A stretch of DNA of 64,000 bases from an uncultured Verrucomicrobiota bacterium (GTDB lineage: Bacteria; Verrucomicrobiota; Verrucomicrobiia; Opitutales; Seribacteraceae), in contig CACFTI010000002.1 of the NCBI GenBank assembly GCA_902569115.1, positions 1 through 64,000 of the forward strand. The letters run 5' to 3'. The notes beneath the pieces are model-generated. The model searched no databases, was not told where the DNA came from, and saw only the letters and a list, made by a program, of their open reading frames with translations. The first letter of the stretch is position 1. Each line of letters opens with the position of its first letter. Below, piece after piece: positions 25,974-33,662 of this stretch. The position numbers and the translations under genes are program-made.

Positions 25974-26069
25974 TCATCCCTTTCTAATGGCTTAGAAATA
26001 AGGGACAAGCGAATAGCATGGCTAGTATCTATTCTTTACGACTGCGAATGTCTATTGCATCATAGTTCT

Positions 26070-27161
26070 ATGCCCAGAATCAGAACGCAATCGATCAGCA
26101 AAACATTCCCGGATGGTACGCAGGCTCTCAATTCCGTGAACCTGGAAGTCCATGATGGTGAACTCTTGGCACTGGTTGGCCCATCCGGTTGCGGGAAGAC
26201 CACATTACTTCGTATTTTTGCAGGTTTGGATAGAGCCACTGATGGGGAAATATTCTTCGATGAGCGGGAGATTTCAAAACTTCCCCCGGATCAAAGAGAT
26301 TTAGGTATGGTCTTTCAAAATTACGCCCTCTTTCCGCACCTTTCTGTTTTCAAAAATATATTGTTGGGTCTGGAAAAACATAATTTGTCAAAATTCGACA
26401 AAGAAGAACAGGTTCAAAAGGTTGCCCATAGCCTCGGCCTTGCCGACCTACTGATGCGTAAACCATCCGAGATCTCGGGTGGACAAAGACAAAGGGTCGC
26501 ACTGGCCCGGTTGCTCGCCCGCAATCCATCCATTCACCTACTCGACGAACCCTTAAGCAACCTGGACGCCAACCTCCGCTTACAAATGCGCCAGGAATTG
26601 GCGGAGCTTCACCGAAAGCATCAAAAGACCACCCTCTTTGTGACGCATGATCAAGTGGAAGCCATGACCTTGGGTCAACGAATTTGCCTGCTCAATCAAG
26701 GATCAGTTGAGCAAATGGGCACCCCACAGGAACTTTATGATTCACCCAAGAATTTATTCGTGGCCGGTTTCTTTGGCATGCCTTCGATCAACTTAATTCA
26801 TGGAAGCATCGAATTTAAACCCAATGGAGAACAGGCGATTTTCAACTCCAAAGACGCAAACTTAAGTCTTCCGTTACCTCCGAATATCCAGCCTGCACAG
26901 CAAAATACCATTCTCGGCATCCGGCCTGAAAGTTTCCAACTGGTCGAACATTCCCCTAAAAATTCATTTGTGATTCAGCGGACGGAGTATCTTGGCGATT
27001 CGCTGGTTTGTTATCTTACGGCAGATGAATTGCAGATCACATGCAAGCAGCCTTCCTTTGAAATCAACCCGGCTGATAAAGTGGGAATCGAAGTCAACTG
27101 GAACCATGTTCATTGCTTTGACCCCGAAAGTGGGGAGCGAATTCAACTGAGTGAAAGCTGA
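26070..27161 (+). CDS. ABC transporter ATPase, sugar-importer (MalK/UgpC) type
   Basis: A 363-residue ATPase. Walker A is GPSGCGKTT (37-45), the Q-loop is in VFQNYALFPHLSVF, the signature is ISGGQRQR, Walker B is LLDEPLSNLD, and the H-loop is FVTHDQ. A C-terminal TOBE/OB regulatory domain (about 240-363, GIRPESFQLV) marks the carbohydrate-uptake group that includes MalK and UgpC. The ATG at 26070 gives the usual N-terminus; an upstream ATG at 26055 adds five residues. Its 3' end overlaps the convergent permease gene by 19 bases. It most likely energises the permeases and binding protein encoded opposite. Confidence 0.92.
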   Translation: MPRIRTQSISKTFPDGTQALNSVNLEVHDGELLALVGPSGCGKTTLLRIFAGLDRATDGEIFFDEREISKLPPDQRDLGMVFQNYALFPHLSVFKNILLGLEKHNLSKFDKEEQVQKVAHSLGLADLLMRKPSEISGGQRQRVALARLLARNPSIHLLDEPLSNLDANLRLQMRQELAELHRKHQKTTLFVTHDQVEAMTLGQRICLLNQGSVEQMGTPQELYDSPKNLFVAGFFGMPSINLIHGSIEFKPNGEQAIFNSKDANLSLPLPPNIQPAQQNTILGIRPESFQLVEHSPKNSFVIQRTEYLGDSLVCYLTADELQITCKQPSFEINPADKVGIEVNWNHVHCFDPESGERIQLSES

Positions 27162-27949
27162 GAAAGGGCTGTCCGCATCTTTCTAAAAAAGAGGGCAAAA
27201 AGAAATACAATAGGAAGAAAAGAAAGGGTGGCCGCGGCCATACCAATCGATTCGGGTGCCCGGTGACTGACATCACTCAATTTGGCCAAAGCCAAAGGTA
27301 AGGTTAGCGAACTATCATCCAGAAGCAGAAGAGCCAATAAGTGTTCCTGCCAGCACAAAGCAAAATGAAGCAGAAAATAAGTTACCATGCTTGGTGCAAA
27401 AAGTGGGGTTACCAGCAAGAATGACCGCAACGGACTAAAGCCTTCCAATCTTGATACTTCCATTAATTCGACCGGGAGCTGCCTGAATGACTGAGAAAAG
27501 AAGACCACCCCCAACCCACTGGCGATTCCACATAGGACTAAGGAAAAGGAATTACCCGTCCAACCAAGCCAATGGAACCATTCAAAAACAGGCACTACCA
27601 AGGCTTGTCTGGGGATAAGAATGATTAAAAGGGCAGCTCCTATCAAAAATGCTTTCGAACGAAAAGAATACCTGGCTAAGACAAAACCGGCCAAAGCAGA
27701 AACCAAGGTAGCCAAGAGAGCTTGCGTTGTGGCTATCAAAACCGACTGCCACAGACTTCCAGTAAAATCCACAAACTTTCCATCCAGCAACATTCCATAG
27801 GCCTGTGCGTCAAATTCCTCTGGAAGCAACTGGGAAGGTTGATAAATTTCTTTATTGGTCTTAAACGAGGAAAAAAACATCCATGTGAACGGATACAGGC
27901 TCAGAAGAACAAAACCGAAAAGCATAAGGATAGAAAGGAGACGACTCAT
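27143..27949 (-). CDS. ABC transporter permease, MalG-like
   Basis: A 268-residue inner-membrane protein with about six helices. The EAA loop, which docks into the ATPase, is EVSRLEGFSPLRSFLLVTPL. Such permeases pair with a MalF-like subunit for carbohydrate import. The start overlaps the upstream permease stop by 4 bases. Its 3' end overlaps the convergent ATPase gene by 19 bases. Confidence 0.92.
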   Translation of the reverse strand: MSRLLSILMLFGFVLLSLYPFTWMFFSSFKTNKEIYQPSQLLPEEFDAQAYGMLLDGKFVDFTGSLWQSVLIATTQALLATLVSALAGFVLARYSFRSKAFLIGAALLIILIPRQALVVPVFEWFHWLGWTGNSFSLVLCGIASGLGVVFFSQSFRQLPVELMEVSRLEGFSPLRSFLLVTPLFAPSMVTYFLLHFALCWQEHLLALLLLDDSSLTLPLALAKLSDVSHRAPESIGMAAATLSFLPIVFLFALFFRKMRTALSQLSLS

Positions 27950-28863
27950 ACCTTTGCCTGAGGTAATCGGACCCGTAAAACCAGAAATAAGAAACCAGCG
28001 ACGAAGGGTGCCACCAACAGACTCATCGCGGCAGCTCCTGGAAGATCAAATCGACCGGACCCTCCGGGAAATGCAACCTGGTAGACATAGGTGACGAGGA
28101 GTAAACCGGCATCCATCATACCCCCTGATCCCCCCAGCAGGGTATATGCACCAGAAAAGGAAGCTACCCCATCGACCACCAGAAAAACTCCAACAAACAG
28201 CGCAAGATTACGAACTCCTGGTACAAGAATTAAACGAATACGGGACAAAGATTTCATGCCCTCGAGCTTGGCCACCTCAAAATGCCAGGATGGGATACCT
28301 TCCAGTGCACACAGAAAAAACAAGGCAACCACACCCGTCCATCGCCAAACGGATTGTATGACCAAAGAAGGCATGATGAAATCCGGATCCATCATCCAAT
28401 TAATCGGATCCATACCAAAAGGGATGATTATGTACTGATTCAAGGCACCCTCTCTTCCGTGAAAAAAGAGATAGAATAATTTCGACATAGCACCTGGTAA
28501 GGCAAGACCTGGGATAAGTAAGCAAAAAGCGAGAATTCCCCTGTAGAGTCTTGGCAGTTCAAAAAGAGCAACCGCCAAAACAAAAGCCAACGGGATAATA
28601 CAAATCAATGAACCAAAAACATACTTTAAGGTATTTGACAAAGCCTTATGGAATTTTGGGTCACCTATAGTTCTTTGAAAATTTTCGAGACCCACATATT
28701 CAATCTCACGATTCTCAGAAGTTGCGAATCCTGAATCTGGGTTTTGCAAGGCAAGATCTACGCCCCAAAACAAAGGTACTACCCAACACAACACCCAAAG
28801 GGCTAAAAAAGGGAGCAACAGGGGAAGTAGGCGACGGAAACTTTCTTGAGGAAGTCCGTTCAT
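27946..28863 (-). CDS. ABC transporter permease, MalF-like
   Basis: A 305-residue inner-membrane permease with about six helices and a small periplasmic stretch after the first (about 40-75). The EAA-loop motif is EVAKLEGMKSLSRIRLILVP. It is encoded 18 bases downstream of the solute-binding protein gene and overlaps the second permease by 4 bases. The typical MalF large periplasmic P2 loop is absent, as in most sugar permeases of this class. Confidence 0.92.
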   Translation of the reverse strand: MNGLPQESFRRLLPLLLPFLALWVLCWVVPLFWGVDLALQNPDSGFATSENREIEYVGLENFQRTIGDPKFHKALSNTLKYVFGSLICIIPLAFVLAVALFELPRLYRGILAFCLLIPGLALPGAMSKLFYLFFHGREGALNQYIIIPFGMDPINWMMDPDFIMPSLVIQSVWRWTGVVALFFLCALEGIPSWHFEVAKLEGMKSLSRIRLILVPGVRNLALFVGVFLVVDGVASFSGAYTLLGGSGGMMDAGLLLVTYVYQVAFPGGSGRFDLPGAAAMSLLVAPFVAGFLFLVLRVRLPQAKV

Positions 28864-28881
28864 GGAAAAAGATTAAATAAT

Positions 28882-30144
28882 CTACCTTTTCCCCCAGGAT
28901 TGCTTCATAGCCTCGCGGTACTGTGAAATTGCTTCCTTCGGGGAAAGTGCTCCAAACATCACGGAACCAAAGTAATTTTCCTGCATCAAAAAGATAGCCT
29001 GCGGACGCCGCGGATCAACCACCACAGGTGGTATCTCATCGGCCAACTCCACAAGCAGATTTCCCATGGACTGCTTAAAGTAAGGATGTTCTTTAAGTAA
29101 ATCTTCATTTTTCCAAGCAGGCAGATAGGCGGGAAAACTGTTACCCTGTAGAAATCTCTCTGCATTTGCCTCCTTATTCTTCATCACAAATTCAAGGAAT
29201 TCCCAGGCCAGGTCTTTGTCTTTTGTCGCCTTACATATCATTAATCCCTGTCCTGCGAAAGTGGCTGTACGCGGACCCAACTTACCATCTTCTCCACGCC
29301 ATGTGGGCAGGGGCATCATCCCCCAAAGTCCCTCCATTCCCGGGGCAAACTGCTGAAAGAGATCCAATCCATACCAATCCGCACCGGCAACGCAAAGAAC
29401 TTCTCCCGCCTCCAGGTCCCCACTAAAAAATACCGGATCAAAGATGGACCCACGATCCGGCATCACCGCAATTTGTGCCTGGGACATTTCCGCAAACTCC
29501 TGAAGAACATCAATTGCCACTTTTTCATCAGGCAGAAAATTGCCTTTTTCGTCAAAAAGATCACTCCCTTTTTGCCTGAGCAGCACATCAAATAAAGTAC
29601 CATCGAGTGCAAGCATCCTTTGCCCCTGGGAATCCTGCAACTCCTCGCCAATGATCGCCATGTCTTCCCAAGTTTGCAATTCTTCCGGTTTGATCCCGTA
29701 TTCTTCAAATAAATCTTTGCGGTAGTAGAGCATCATCGCACTCAAAGATTGAGGCAGACCGAGCAGTTGTTTTTTGTAAGTAAAAACATCTAATCTTCTG
29801 GGATGTAATGTTTTATCCAATTTAGATTTCTTTGCTAACTGAGTCAGATCTAAAAATGGGCTTGGTCCGTTAAGAAAAACTCCAAAGAAGGTCTCATCCA
29901 ATTGCACCATATCCGGAAGCCCCTCACCAGTACGCAAAGCAACTCCTAATTTATCAGGCATTTCCCGAAACCCATAGGCTTTTACTTCCAATTCAAAACC
30001 CTTATTCTTCTTGGCAAAAATCTCCGCCATCTTTTCGTAATATACCTGATCCTGAAACGAACTGATCCACAAAGAAAGTTGTTCAGAAAACAAAGATTGC
30101 TGAAAGCAGATTAGAATGCATGCGTAAAAAAAATTTTTAATCAT
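28882..30144 (-). CDS. ABC transporter solute-binding protein (carbohydrate type)
   Basis: A 420-residue periplasmic binding protein with signal peptide (about 1-21, cleaved near FSEQ). The SBP family-1 fold includes WEDMAIIGEELQ, FYFSGDLEAGE-like segments and a final WEFLEFVMKNKEANAERF helix. The substrate is likely a sugar or oligosaccharide, judged by family and by the MalF/MalG/MalK-type partners, but no residues settle it. It is first in the minus-strand transporter operon, and the 140 bases upstream face the secreted repeat protein. Confidence 0.9.
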   Translation of the reverse strand: MIKNFFYACILICFQQSLFSEQLSLWISSFQDQVYYEKMAEIFAKKNKGFELEVKAYGFREMPDKLGVALRTGEGLPDMVQLDETFFGVFLNGPSPFLDLTQLAKKSKLDKTLHPRRLDVFTYKKQLLGLPQSLSAMMLYYRKDLFEEYGIKPEELQTWEDMAIIGEELQDSQGQRMLALDGTLFDVLLRQKGSDLFDEKGNFLPDEKVAIDVLQEFAEMSQAQIAVMPDRGSIFDPVFFSGDLEAGEVLCVAGADWYGLDLFQQFAPGMEGLWGMMPLPTWRGEDGKLGPRTATFAGQGLMICKATKDKDLAWEFLEFVMKNKEANAERFLQGNSFPAYLPAWKNEDLLKEHPYFKQSMGNLLVELADEIPPVVVDPRRPQAIFLMQENYFGSVMFGALSPKEAISQYREAMKQSWGKR

Positions 30145-30332
30145 TGTATAAAACTATATTTATCAGGGGCTTAAATTTTAAAAAATTAAAGATCTATACT
30201 GCTGATCTTCTATCCTTACCCATTCATAATCGCAAACATTTATGTTGTATTAGGATGGGAAAAAAAATTAACATAATCTGTTAAATGGTGTGCCCTAATT
30301 TTATTGGAAAAATACTCCTCCCAAAAATAACT

Positions 30333-32741
30333 ATGACAGAATTACTAACACAATGTAATAAATCATTTGTCTTTATTTTTACACTCTTGGCAATAACTCC
30401 AAATGTGGAAGCTCAAAATGGAGATACCAATACGCAGCAAGGATTGCCAGTGTACCTTATCTCGCACTTTGTCTCACCACTTACTGGTGGAGTCATTTCC
30501 GCTACCGGAAATTATGCATTCGAAATCTGGACTGATAGTTCAGGCACTGAAAACAAGAAACTCGTCAGTGCTGTCAAAAACGCAAATGACGAATGGCAGA
30601 GGGCAACGAATTCAAATAACAATGTAATTCAGTATGATCTTGCTGCTGACTACGATACAATCGAAGAAATTAATACTCTATTGAACGAATTCAATGTTCA
30701 ACCAATAGGTGTAATTATCGATGAGGAGGAAGACGCGGAAGGCAGTGAAACAACATTATCAAGTAACGGGACGCCGATTCAATGGGCCCGCACTAACGGT
30801 GACTCACAATCGGGTGTAATTTATGATCTAGCTCAGCCTATCAAGGTAATTGCTCCCACTGGATACACTGTAGTACTAAAAAATGTTGGAGAGAATGAAG
30901 AGTATGACACTCAACAAACTGTAGTTGATGATTTACATGCAGTATTGGCTGCAACGGGTAACCTTGATGGCAAAGGGTATGGGGGTATCTTTTACAAATC
31001 TGATAATAATACGGATTGGGATCATTGGACGACGACTTATGTTGCTTATGCAAAGCCACAGACCACCGATACAGAAGACCAAGATTCAGAGGAGATCATC
31101 ACCCCGCAGGGATTACCGGTGTACACTCTTTCCCAAACTCAGGTCGATACACTTGTCGGGGTAAATGCGGCCAATGCCGGGACCTATGCTGTGGAAATTT
31201 GGACTGACAGTTCAGGCACTGAAAACAAGAAACTGGTCAGTGCCCAACAAATTAACGAAGATTGGTTCAGGAAAGAAAATTCCAACGGTGATATCGAACA
31301 ATATGATCTGGTTCCCTCTTACGACTCTTTCGATGAGGTCATTTCTTACATCAGTTCTCAAAACCTAACACCCACAGGTCACATTATTGATGAGGAGGAG
31401 GAACACCATGGTCCTTTTAATTTCACGATTACAGATGAAATTGATCTTAATAATCCGCAAGAACTGATCGATCTTTCCTCTGACCATAACGATATTTGGT
31501 TCCAGCAAGTGAATCTTGAAGACGGAATATATATTTGGGCACTTTCAGTGGAAAACGACGATGAATACGGTGATACTAGTGAATCAAGTAACCTGATGGT
31601 CGAAATGAACGGTTCAGTATATGAGGGAGATTTTCATGCATATTGGCGTGATAAATTTGAAATTGATGTGGAAAATAATTCATCAAGTAACTGGAGAGAA
31701 AACCGCTTTGATACAAATGAAAGCGGTATCAGCGAGCTTTATCTTCATTATCCTGAAATCAGAGGTGCGAATGCTCACTTCGACTTTTCAATTATAGATG
31801 AAATTGATCTTAATAATCAGCAGGAACTTATCGATCTTTCCGCTGACCATGACGATGTTTGGTTTCAACGGGTGAACCTTGAGGATGGCAGGTATATTTG
31901 GGCTCTTTCCGTGGAAAACGATGATGAAAACGGTTCTACTAGTGAATCAAGTAACCTGATGGTCGAAATGAACGGTTCAGTGTATGAGGGAGATTTTCAT
32001 GACTATTGGAGGGATGCATTCGATATTATGATTGATAATAACTCAACCAATTGGAGAGAAGACCGTTTTGATGCCAATCCTGAAGGTATCAAAAATCTAC
32101 TTTTTCAGTTTCCTGAAATCCGCGGACCCAACGCCCCAGTCTCCCCTATGGTGAAAACTGATCCGCCTAAGTCATCTTTTGGAAATAAAGCCACATTTGT
32201 TGGCAAACTCATTACCGATGGTAACAATCGAAATCTCTCTCTGGGTTTTCAATTTAGTGAAGACCTTAGGTTTAATGATGTCATCGAAGTTCTCATTCGT
32301 GGTGATAATTTTGAAGCTGAATATGATTTCTCCAAGTATGAATCTAAATATCTCTACTATCGGGCATTTGCTCGAAACGAGGAATTCGAATCATTCGGAG
32401 CAAGAAAAAGGTTAAAAATAGAAGTTCTAGCCACAACGAAAATTAATGGAGCCAAGATCGTGGAAGGTGGTTGGGAATCTTCCGATTGGTTTGGTCACTA
32501 TTATATTCAAGAAAATGGATGGATTTACCATGAGGATTTGGGATGGTGTTTTCTCGTAATTCAAAAAAATAATCATTGGCTTTGGATGGAGAAATACGGT
32601 TGGCTATGGACTAAACCTAGCGTTTGGCCCTACTTGTATGTTAATGAGAACGCTAACTGGCTATATTTACTGAAAAGAAAATCCGGACCGAGCCTTTTCT
32701 TTGACCGTAAAATAGAGCAATTCCTGCCTGTTCATAACTAA
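30333..32741 (+). CDS. Secreted repeat protein with Trp/Tyr-rich C-terminal module
   Basis: An exported protein of about 802 residues with a signal peptide (NKSFVFIFTLLAITPNVEA); an in-frame ATG at 30285 would add 16 residues before it. It contains two homologous units of about 95 residues (IWTDSSGTENKKLVS in each) and then two tandem 121-residue units (WALSVENDDE and VEMNGSVYEGDFH in each). The final 100 residues are aromatic: WIYHEDLGWCF, WLWMEKYGWLWT, YLYVNENANWLYLL. I associate such endings with extracellular proteins of marine Verrucomicrobia, from memory. It is acidic and Asp/Asn-rich. Function is unknown; surface adhesion or matrix is a guess. Confidence 0.75.
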   Translation: MTELLTQCNKSFVFIFTLLAITPNVEAQNGDTNTQQGLPVYLISHFVSPLTGGVISATGNYAFEIWTDSSGTENKKLVSAVKNANDEWQRATNSNNNVIQYDLAADYDTIEEINTLLNEFNVQPIGVIIDEEEDAEGSETTLSSNGTPIQWARTNGDSQSGVIYDLAQPIKVIAPTGYTVVLKNVGENEEYDTQQTVVDDLHAVLAATGNLDGKGYGGIFYKSDNNTDWDHWTTTYVAYAKPQTTDTEDQDSEEIITPQGLPVYTLSQTQVDTLVGVNAANAGTYAVEIWTDSSGTENKKLVSAQQINEDWFRKENSNGDIEQYDLVPSYDSFDEVISYISSQNLTPTGHIIDEEEEHHGPFNFTITDEIDLNNPQELIDLSSDHNDIWFQQVNLEDGIYIWALSVENDDEYGDTSESSNLMVEMNGSVYEGDFHAYWRDKFEIDVENNSSSNWRENRFDTNESGISELYLHYPEIRGANAHFDFSIIDEIDLNNQQELIDLSADHDDVWFQRVNLEDGRYIWALSVENDDENGSTSESSNLMVEMNGSVYEGDFHDYWRDAFDIMIDNNSTNWREDRFDANPEGIKNLLFQFPEIRGPNAPVSPMVKTDPPKSSFGNKATFVGKLITDGNNRNLSLGFQFSEDLRFNDVIEVLIRGDNFEAEYDFSKYESKYLYYRAFARNEEFESFGARKRLKIEVLATTKINGAKIVEGGWESSDWFGHYYIQENGWIYHEDLGWCFLVIQKNNHWLWMEKYGWLWTKPSVWPYLYVNENANWLYLLKRKSGPSLFFDRKIEQFLPVHN
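30441..31402 (+). repeat. Two diverged copies of a ~95-codon unit inside the secreted protein gene
   Basis: Copy 1 starts near 30441 and copy 2 near 31110, 669 bases apart. Each begins GLPVY, contains EIWTDSSGTENKKLVSA and ends IDEEE. Around the central segment the DNA itself is nearly identical, implying recent duplication or selection. The stretch between copies encodes a distinct Ser/Thr/Asn-rich linker of about 125 residues. Confidence 0.75.
31414..32139 (+). repeat. Tandem duplication of a 363-base unit inside the secreted protein gene
   Basis: Units 31414-31776 and 31777-32139 each encode 121 residues. A run of about 64 bases within them (31575-31638 and 31938-32001) is nearly identical, starting ACTAGTGAATCAAGTAACCT. 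This exact in-frame 363-base period shows a recent internal duplication that can expand or contract by recombination. Confidence 0.85.
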
Positions 32742-32777: not shown

Positions 32778-33662
32778 TTGGTAACTGTGCTCTTTTGCAT
32801 TGGAATATTTGGCTGTAGGCCAATAAACAATTCACTCGTCAGAAAAGAGCAAGATACCAAGCATCCCGAAGTAGAAAAAAGGAATAATATTCTTGATAAA
32901 AACTTCTCCAATATTCCAGAAATACGAATTATTTCAAAGAAATGGGGAACAGGTAATCATCAGGATATTTTGGCAGTTCTTCGCAGCGTCGCTGAGATCA
33001 TGTTTCCTCTCGGAGGAAAACCACCGTATAATTCCATCTGGGTAAGTCGTTCAGAACAGGGGCCCATCGTTCTCTACCAACGTGGCAAGCAAGGGGAGTA
33101 TATTGTCAAGTTGAACACGCAAGACCGCTTCTGGTGCCAGTATGCTTTCCAGTTTAGTCACGAGATCGGGCACATCCTCTGTGGTTACATGGATGGCGAT
33201 CCCTCCAACTTGTGGTTTGAGGAAACCCTCGGTGAAGTAGCGTCTTTATATGCTCTCTTACGATTGGAAGAAGCATGGAAAAAATCTCCCCCCTACCCTC
33301 ACTGGAAAGACTACGCACCAGAATTCACGAAGTACGCCGAGGAAAGAATAAAAAAATACGAAAATGAAATTCCTGCAGATCTGAAGGCCTGGTTCCAAGC
33401 AAATAAACAATCACTTCGTAATGATCCGGTGGATCGTCCGAGGAATGTATCCCTGGCGATTCGACTACTCCCGCTTTTTGATAAATTCCCGGAAGGATGG
33501 TCGGCCTCTGCTTTCCTTAACACAAAGAAATCAAAAACTCCCCGTAGTTATACCTCCTATATGAACGACTGGTATCAAGCTTGTCCTCTACCAGAACAAA
33601 AAAGCTTCGTAAAAAAAATAGCCGGTCATTTCGGAATCAAGCTTTCCTTACAAAAAGATTGA
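32778..33662 (+). CDS. Lipoprotein with HEXXH zinc-protease-like motif
   Basis: A 294-residue protein with a hydrophobic N-terminus ending in IFGC (Cys13 from the TTG start), so probably a lipoprotein. The central FSHEIGHILCGY gives His128, Glu129 and His132. NLWFEETLGEVASLYAL follows, whose glutamate could be the third zinc ligand of a gluzincin-type peptidase. No larger family is recognised. The only canonical starts are TTG 32778 or GTG 32787. Reading upstream in frame gives IIKKHVTGSALV before it, a more natural positively charged signal start, but without ATG, GTG or TTG. It follows the secreted repeat protein by 36 bases. Confidence 0.7.
   Translation: MVTVLFCIGIFGCRPINNSLVRKEQDTKHPEVEKRNNILDKNFSNIPEIRIISKKWGTGNHQDILAVLRSVAEIMFPLGGKPPYNSIWVSRSEQGPIVLYQRGKQGEYIVKLNTQDRFWCQYAFQFSHEIGHILCGYMDGDPSNLWFEETLGEVASLYALLRLEEAWKKSPPYPHWKDYAPEFTKYAEERIKKYENEIPADLKAWFQANKQSLRNDPVDRPRNVSLAIRLLPLFDKFPEGWSASAFLNTKKSKTPRSYTSYMNDWYQACPLPEQKSFVKKIAGHFGIKLSLQKD

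Follow-up and report, generated by a model that had tools for sequence, protein, structure and literature searches.

Choline-binding and GW-type repeats are aromatic hairpins that hold proteins on an envelope polymer. The C-terminal domain of the type IX secretion system (T9SS) of Bacteroidetes is described as an all-beta domain with seven strands in an immunoglobulin (Ig)-like sandwich, common to many exported proteins (PMC4804311), while the GlyGly-CTERM/rhombosortase, MYXO-CTERM/myxosortase and PEP-CTERM/exosortase systems are described as using a short motif, a transmembrane helix and a basic tail (PMC3237569, PMC11980579). Here we analyse a stretch of 64,000 nucleotides, called the window throughout, from an uncultured Verrucomicrobiota bacterium of the order Opitutales (contig CACFTI010000002.1), and in particular one of its genes, the window gene, which encodes a protein with a Trp-rich C-terminal module. 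An initial annotation of this gene had pointed to internal repeats and a Trp/Tyr-rich ending, both of which are present. The ending is a recurrent domain with a characteristic distribution, a mostly terminal position, a near-strict single copy per protein, a mixed set of adhesin-like and enzyme-like carriers and a confident fold model.

A Trp-rich domain of about 95 residues

Conservation was determined over 78 representative modules, with position 1 corresponding to 32442 of the window. The module spans about 95 residues. Five of its Trp are near-invariant, W27 (100%), W54 and W73 (99% each), W46 (97%) and W35 (96%), and a His, H30, is conserved (91%); the other conserved positions include G18 (97%), G34 (90%), W16 (88%), P63 (87%) and W11 (86%). 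Trp accounts for 11% of the composition, and Tyr and Phe together for 14%. The pattern W-x-[YW]-x4-G-W-x-[YW] is present twice, 19 residues apart (WIYHEDLGWCF and WLWMEKYGWLW), an indication that the module contains an internal repeat of hairpins.

The ending of the window protein gave no convincing match in Pfam or NCBIfam, and neither did the 78 representative modules, for which the best values were E 0.0034 in Pfam, from a single member, and E 0.044 in NCBIfam. This supports the proposal of the initial annotation that the module is a new domain family, relative to the libraries searched. Among the titles and abstract openings listed for literature on C-terminal sorting in Verrucomicrobia and Opitutales and on Trp-rich repeats, none names the domain, which may still be published.

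The fold was predicted with AlphaFold2 from 11 aligned sequences (window 32430-32738, model mb02b3e54f134). The best model has a predicted local distance difference test score (pLDDT) of 91.6 and a predicted template modelling score of 0.80, and two of the five models were lower (pLDDT 73.5 and 65.0). The predicted fold is all-beta: it consists of ten short strands and lacks helices of four residues or more. Foldseek returned 375 matches at E ≤ 10 against the PDB and 390 against viral models, none of them at E ≤ 0.001 in either set. The best VIA-align Z was 5.1, for potempin E (59 residues aligned, root-mean-square deviation 2.7), in a range (below Z 8) where the program warns of a merely common arrangement. 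The lack of a confident fold match does not prove that the fold is new. By sequence, the 78-row profile matched just one PDB entry at E ≤ 10, the PBSX prophage exoprotein XepA (6i56), with E 0.0054, against E 0.38 for a 20-row profile; this match is partial, covering 57 profile positions and requiring an insertion of about ten residues, and homology to XepA was not accepted.

The module resembles the C-terminal domain of T9SS in being an all-beta C-terminal domain on many apparently exported proteins. It may differ from it in its fold, predicted with ten short strands compared with seven in the Ig-like sandwich, and it is sometimes N-terminal; none of the 78 modules matched a T9SS C-terminal domain model at E ≤ 0.1 in Pfam or NCBIfam, both of which we take to contain such models. 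With the CTERM systems it shares a C-terminal region that is paralogous in many proteins of a genome, which are alike there only, but it is much longer than a short motif (about 95 residues), and the hydrophobic helix is absent in 89 of 89 C-terminal copies. The likeness to choline-binding and GW-type repeats concerns only how they work, namely hairpins of about 20 residues, paired aromatics and retention on an envelope polymer. The module differs from these repeats in its roughly fixed length and usually single copy, and no Pfam family of choline-binding, GW-type or cell-wall-binding repeats matched the 78 modules at E ≤ 0.1. OCRE (PF17780), a eukaryotic nuclear domain, is also aromatic-rich and was reached by 4 of the 78 modules at E ≤ 0.1 (best 0.0069), a match too weak for a claim of kinship.

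Distribution, position and carriers of the module

A single-sequence query of the own genome found 24 places at E ≤ 10, the window included. Of the 23 others, 21 have E 5e-5 or better and two lie at 0.005-0.006, so the Trp/Tyr-rich ending recurs far beyond chance. With a 20-row profile, 25 matches were obtained at E ≤ 0.001, 24 of which were classified: the own genome, which is 70% complete, contains 20 full modules in 20 open reading frames (ORFs), one fragment of 76 residues and three half modules. The module thus also ends about twenty other, otherwise different and apparently exported proteins of this genome. The three half modules correspond to profile positions of about 46-98; one ends a thioredoxin-like protein and the other two end coiled-coil-like proteins, one of which was assigned by eye. 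Half modules (positions about 42-98) were noted as C-terminal copies at L075:2647-3747, L093:2124-3737, L093:3778-6234 and L143:1130-11038, in thioredoxin-like or coiled-coil-like proteins, some of them in gene clusters.

The same 20-row profile (E ≤ 0.001) detects the module in 41 of 57 genomes, the own genome included. All 37 genomes of the family are among them, each with 4 to 37 matches, and so are 4 of the 20 genomes from other families of the order. At the level of the order, 79 of 273 genomes and 30 of 88 genera are positive (78-row profile, E ≤ 1e-5). Even draws of genomes gave 4 positives among 286 for the class and 6 among 288 for the phylum, the own genome included (20-row profile, E ≤ 1e-5); two of the phylum-draw positives (G351 and G411) belong to other orders and have a single weak match each. 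In the genome_contigs set, eight of nine module loci are in records titled Opitutia, Opitutae, Opitutales or Verrucomicrobia. The ninth (L073, JAJXYD010000011.1) is in a record titled Deltaproteobacteria, from a genome with 16 module matches; the record may represent a mislabelled bin or a transfer to another phylum. Among viral contigs, 11 stretches fit the module patterns, none of which encodes a relative.

The position of the module was analysed for 109 distinct full modules from five genomes (G000, G016, G026, G053 and G183), a subset of the matches in those genomes. The great majority, 89, end within 25 residues of the stop codon, compared with about 9.0 expected under uniform placement, a rough expectation because the ORFs were taken as retrieved and some are incomplete. 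Eight modules are near the N-terminus (start at residue 150 of the ORF or earlier); in the two N-terminal examples inspected in full, the module directly follows a signal-peptide-like stretch. None of the 109 shares its protein with a second copy. A strict rule of one module per protein is nevertheless ruled out by a two-module ORF in G019 (L252:653-2614, G019:C404), the sole case among 252 module ORFs, a count in which overlapping loci repeat. No transmembrane-like segment is found in any of the 89 C-terminal copies (last 110 residues, 19-residue window, Kyte-Doolittle (KD) hydropathy ≥ 1.6, highest value 1.10), and membrane anchoring via the module itself is therefore unlikely. In four carriers the module is followed by a short helix-like tail (approximately L/F-[ST]-x-x-[EQ]-[KR]...E-L-[LFY]...G; L082:6272-15730, L036:983-3133, L030:70-1008 and L150:1097-9946), some with an InlB-like repeat in between, which is perhaps a second recurrent C-terminal element.

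The proteins that carry the module are diverse. The own genome has 19 further full carriers, of which 18 (all but L084) were scanned; these include S8 subtilase (2), M12 reprolysin (2) and trypsin (1) proteins, together with matches to beta-propeller, cadherin, Big, LamG, FG-GAP, CarboxypepD_reg and other families; three of the 18 have no family match upstream of the module. In the other four genomes 68 of 89 carriers were scanned (250-1400 residues as retrieved), and among the 25 families listed, out of 62 matched, cadherin occurs in 14 carriers, surface Ig-like domains in 9, InlB repeats in 7, trypsin in 4 and S8 in 2. Polysaccharide-lyase-like carriers are also present, with chondroitinase B in one of the 68 and a carrageenase-type propeller in two. 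Elsewhere, one Peptidase_M23 and one CHAP carrier, both peptidoglycan-hydrolase-like, were found. The initial annotation had described this ending as one found on extracellular proteins of marine Verrucomicrobia, which is supported by the 41 positive genomes, the eight contig loci and the adhesin- and enzyme-like carriers.

The window gene, its repeats and its neighbours

The features of the window gene and of the gene downstream of it are as follows.

30285..32741, + strand: carrier ORF, 818 residues from the upstream ATG (ORF list, translation)
30333..30413, + strand: signal-peptide-like N-terminus MTELLTQCNKSFVFIFTLLAITPNVEA (hydrophobic 11-residue window of KD 2.69; cleavage site by eye)
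30435..30740, + strand: unit A copy 1 (A1), residues 51-152 (52% amino acid identity to copy 2)
31107..31406, + strand: unit A copy 2 (A2), residues 275-374 (sequence comparison with copy 1)
31416..31778, + strand: unit B copy 1 (B1), 121 residues (nucleotide and protein self-comparison)
31779..32138, + strand: unit B copy 2 (B2), 120 residues (75% amino acid identity to copy 1)
32139..32429, + strand: putative fibronectin-III-like linker domain, ending YLYYRAFARN...ESFGARKRLK (by-eye comparison)
32451..32726, + strand: Trp-rich C-terminal module, residues 723-814, the main finding (profile matches, AlphaFold2 model)
32778..33662, + strand: apparently exported, possibly lipid-anchored protein with HEIGH...WFEE, 36 bases downstream of the carrier

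The more likely start of the gene is the in-frame ATG at 30333 (Met17), which the initial annotation had used, because the signal-peptide-like stretch directly follows Met17. The linker at 32139..32429 has no domain-library match, and stretches that resemble it by eye also stand before the module in some other carriers.

The two copies of unit A share a core of 67 nucleotides that is 87% identical at a spacing of 672, and the peptide IWTDSSGTENKKLVS is encoded identically by both. The two units of about 95 codons with nearly identical DNA cores that had been described thus hold as far as the core is concerned, while the whole copies, of about 100 residues, are only 52% identical as protein. 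For unit B, 275 nucleotides are 83% identical at a spacing of 363; the best window of 64 nucleotides has 63 matching positions, and the longest exact run is 45 nucleotides. The copies, which differ in length by one codon, align over 120 codons, of which 66 are identical, 24 differ synonymously and 30 nonsynonymously. The spacing of 363 is constant across the unit B block, and the near-identical stretch of about 64 bases noted earlier is confirmed, yet the sequence is not the exact 363-base tandem repeat that had been claimed. Tandem Repeats Finder reported no array.

A carrier from the same genus (G003) gives an indication of the relative ages of the repeats. One unit A of this carrier is 76% identical to A2, compared with 52% between A1 and A2, so the duplication of unit A is probably the older one and predates the split from G003. 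B1 and B2 are 75% identical, compared with 56-59% between each of them and the single unit B available from G003, so the duplication of unit B looks young and lineage-specific. This comparison is provisional, as the G003 ORF is interrupted by the contig end. The description of the duplications as recent is therefore appropriate for unit B and not for unit A.

Relatives of the repeat region are found in 9 of the 57 genomes, the own genome included, all of one genus. The copy number of unit B varies between them, with three copies matched in the G013 carrier, two in the window gene and one in as much of the G003 carrier as is available. An ORF with the repeats also has the module in eight of these nine genomes, and in the ninth (G016) the module is in apparently the same ORF of 1155 residues, for which the locus sequence is incomplete. 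One weaker match to the repeat region was seen in G014 (C70). Units A and B had no convincing match in Pfam, where the best was Big_13 (E 0.0038, below its cut-off and spanning the B1/B2 border), or in NCBIfam, where the best was an equivalog (E 0.0045, 22 residues). A structure model of unit B, built from the two copies, was of low confidence (pLDDT 50.0) and was discarded.

Directly upstream of the carrier, at 26055-30144, are genes for a sugar-type ATP-binding cassette transporter, as judged from the translations, with the ATPase on the + strand and two permeases and a binding protein on the − strand. The protein encoded downstream, at 32778-33662, has the motif HEIGH...WFEE, which we take to be a zinc-peptidase-like signature, and five of six members of this HExxH family have weak matches to M78 peptidase (best E 0.0036). 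A match to pertussis toxin subunit S5 (best E 0.00024 in Pfam, in two of six members, and 0.00063 in the PDB) was taken as chance, because S5 is presumably not a peptidase and no other feature agrees with it.

In 18 of 30 loci (L192-L221), a module carrier is followed on the same strand, at a distance of up to about 1 kb, by a homologue of the HExxH protein; in L202 and L221 the protein forms part of much longer ORFs. The family is present in 28 of the 41 module-bearing genomes and in 1 of the 16 module-free ones, as a single copy in 28 of the 29 genomes that have it and in three copies in G019. The 13 module-bearing genomes without it include G056 (100% complete, 50 modules), G037 and G038 (97% complete), G009 (95%) and G030 (92%). 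These genomes, together with G054, which has a homologue and no module, make the HExxH neighbour unlikely as an obligate partner of the module.

Possible roles of the module

Because one domain stands terminally, and nearly always singly, on otherwise different and apparently exported proteins, we consider that it provides a service function common to its carriers. The reading that we favour, tentatively, is that the module is a folded surface-retention domain of this marine Opitutales-type lineage. It would fold by itself from short beta hairpins, usually as one module per protein and mostly in a terminal position. The carrier would exit the cytoplasm via a Sec signal peptide and cross the outer membrane by some general route, and the module would keep it on the cell surface through non-covalent binding to a constant envelope component, candidates for which are lipopolysaccharide, a wall or capsule glycan, and a surface protein. 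The binding face may be formed by aromatic residues and the conserved His, a proposal that does not draw on the per-residue coordinates of the model. The variable upstream parts, which are Ig- or cadherin-like repeats, lectin-like domains, proteases and polysaccharide lyases, and in the window gene units A and B, would then point outward. Placement at either end of the protein seems to fit a retention domain better than a signal that is read last, and the M23 and CHAP carriers are as expected if the module binds the cell's own envelope.

Several points weigh against surface retention. An export signal would explain the strong C-terminal bias equally well, and we infer both the surface location and the ligand of the module. 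The M23 protein and the CHAP protein are one example each, and the latter, from a genome that does not belong to the order, matches the module weakly (E 5.9e-6). Twelve of the 109 modules end more than 25 residues before the C-terminus and are not near the N-terminus either; in some of these, InlB-like repeats or a short helical tail come after the module. The two modules of the G019 ORF, whose 5' end is incomplete, lie at residues 52-149 and 556-650 of 654. Finally, a signal-peptide-like N-terminus is seen in just 53 of the 77 carriers with a closed 5' end, by a crude hydrophobicity test that 22 of 48 long stop-to-stop ORFs of the window also pass; some of the carriers that fail it look like truncated ORFs, and some are barely below the threshold.

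It is less probable, and in our estimate unlikely, that the module is instead an export signal, i.e. a folded C-terminal tag for an outer-membrane secretion machine, like the C-terminal domain of T9SS. Such a tag would agree with the 89 copies at the extreme C-terminus, with the absence of a second copy among the 109 proteins, and with 4 to 37 matches per family genome on carriers that include proteases and adhesins. It is harder to reconcile with the eight copies near the N-terminus, two of them directly after a signal-peptide-like stretch, and with the further domains that follow some copies. In our view, the copies near the N-terminus speak for retention, and the C-terminal bias (82%) for an export signal; the sorting or surface anchoring raised by the initial annotation stays an interpretation, and a strictly C-terminal signal is weakened by the N-terminal copies. 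No machine that tracks the module was found either, among exosortase, SprA and the downstream HExxH family, which were those searched for. SprA (TIGR04189) was not found in any of the 57 genomes, but the 14 control genomes were equally silent, so that this search has no positive control. Exosortase occurs in 30 of the 41 module-bearing and 8 of the 16 module-free genomes, with none found in the incomplete own genome, and was set aside as a partner because it is found with and without the module. Rather unlikely, too, is the more far-reaching possibility that the module, as a new fold, is the cargo tag of an undescribed system for outer-membrane export and display, a T9SS equivalent outside Bacteroidetes.

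We consider it improbable that the module is a carbohydrate-binding module by which enzymes and adhesins are fixed to a substrate outside the cell, for example an algal polysaccharide. An aromatic-rich beta fold and the polysaccharide-lyase-like carriers would suit this role. However, a second copy is lacking in the 109 proteins, the two-module protein of G019 apart, the carriers are a mixture that extends to proteases, adhesins and a thioredoxin-like protein (with a half module), and the module is present in every genome of the family; in addition, no carbohydrate-binding family of Pfam matches the 78 modules at E ≤ 0.1. Little credence is given to the idea that the module protects long surface proteins as a structural end-cap or multimerisation domain and has no targeting role. 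The terminal position, the usually single copy and the confident predicted fold are compatible with it, but short ORFs also end in the module (311 residues in the own genome, 234 to 287 among the profile matches), which would seem to need no cap, and the conserved His is not obviously structural. Finally, it is very improbable that the module is the recognition site of the HExxH peptidase-like protein, in a one-to-many protease/substrate pair like rhombosortase/GlyGly-CTERM, since the downstream adjacency and the co-occurrence with the module are set against the 13 module-bearing genomes without the gene, G056 with its 50 modules among them, and the module-free G054, and the association lies mostly inside one family, where shared ancestry explains much of it.

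To our knowledge, little has been established about the way in which adhesins, proteases and enzymes that degrade polysaccharides reach the outside of the cell in marine Verrucomicrobiota. With up to tens of apparently exported proteins marked in a single genome, such a domain is a handle on the surface proteome, and would permit many uncharacterised ORFs to be annotated together. Through phylogenetic profiling, the module may lead to a new export machine; a cargo-tag system, if true, would serve a large share of the exported proteome in the marine Opitutales lineage.

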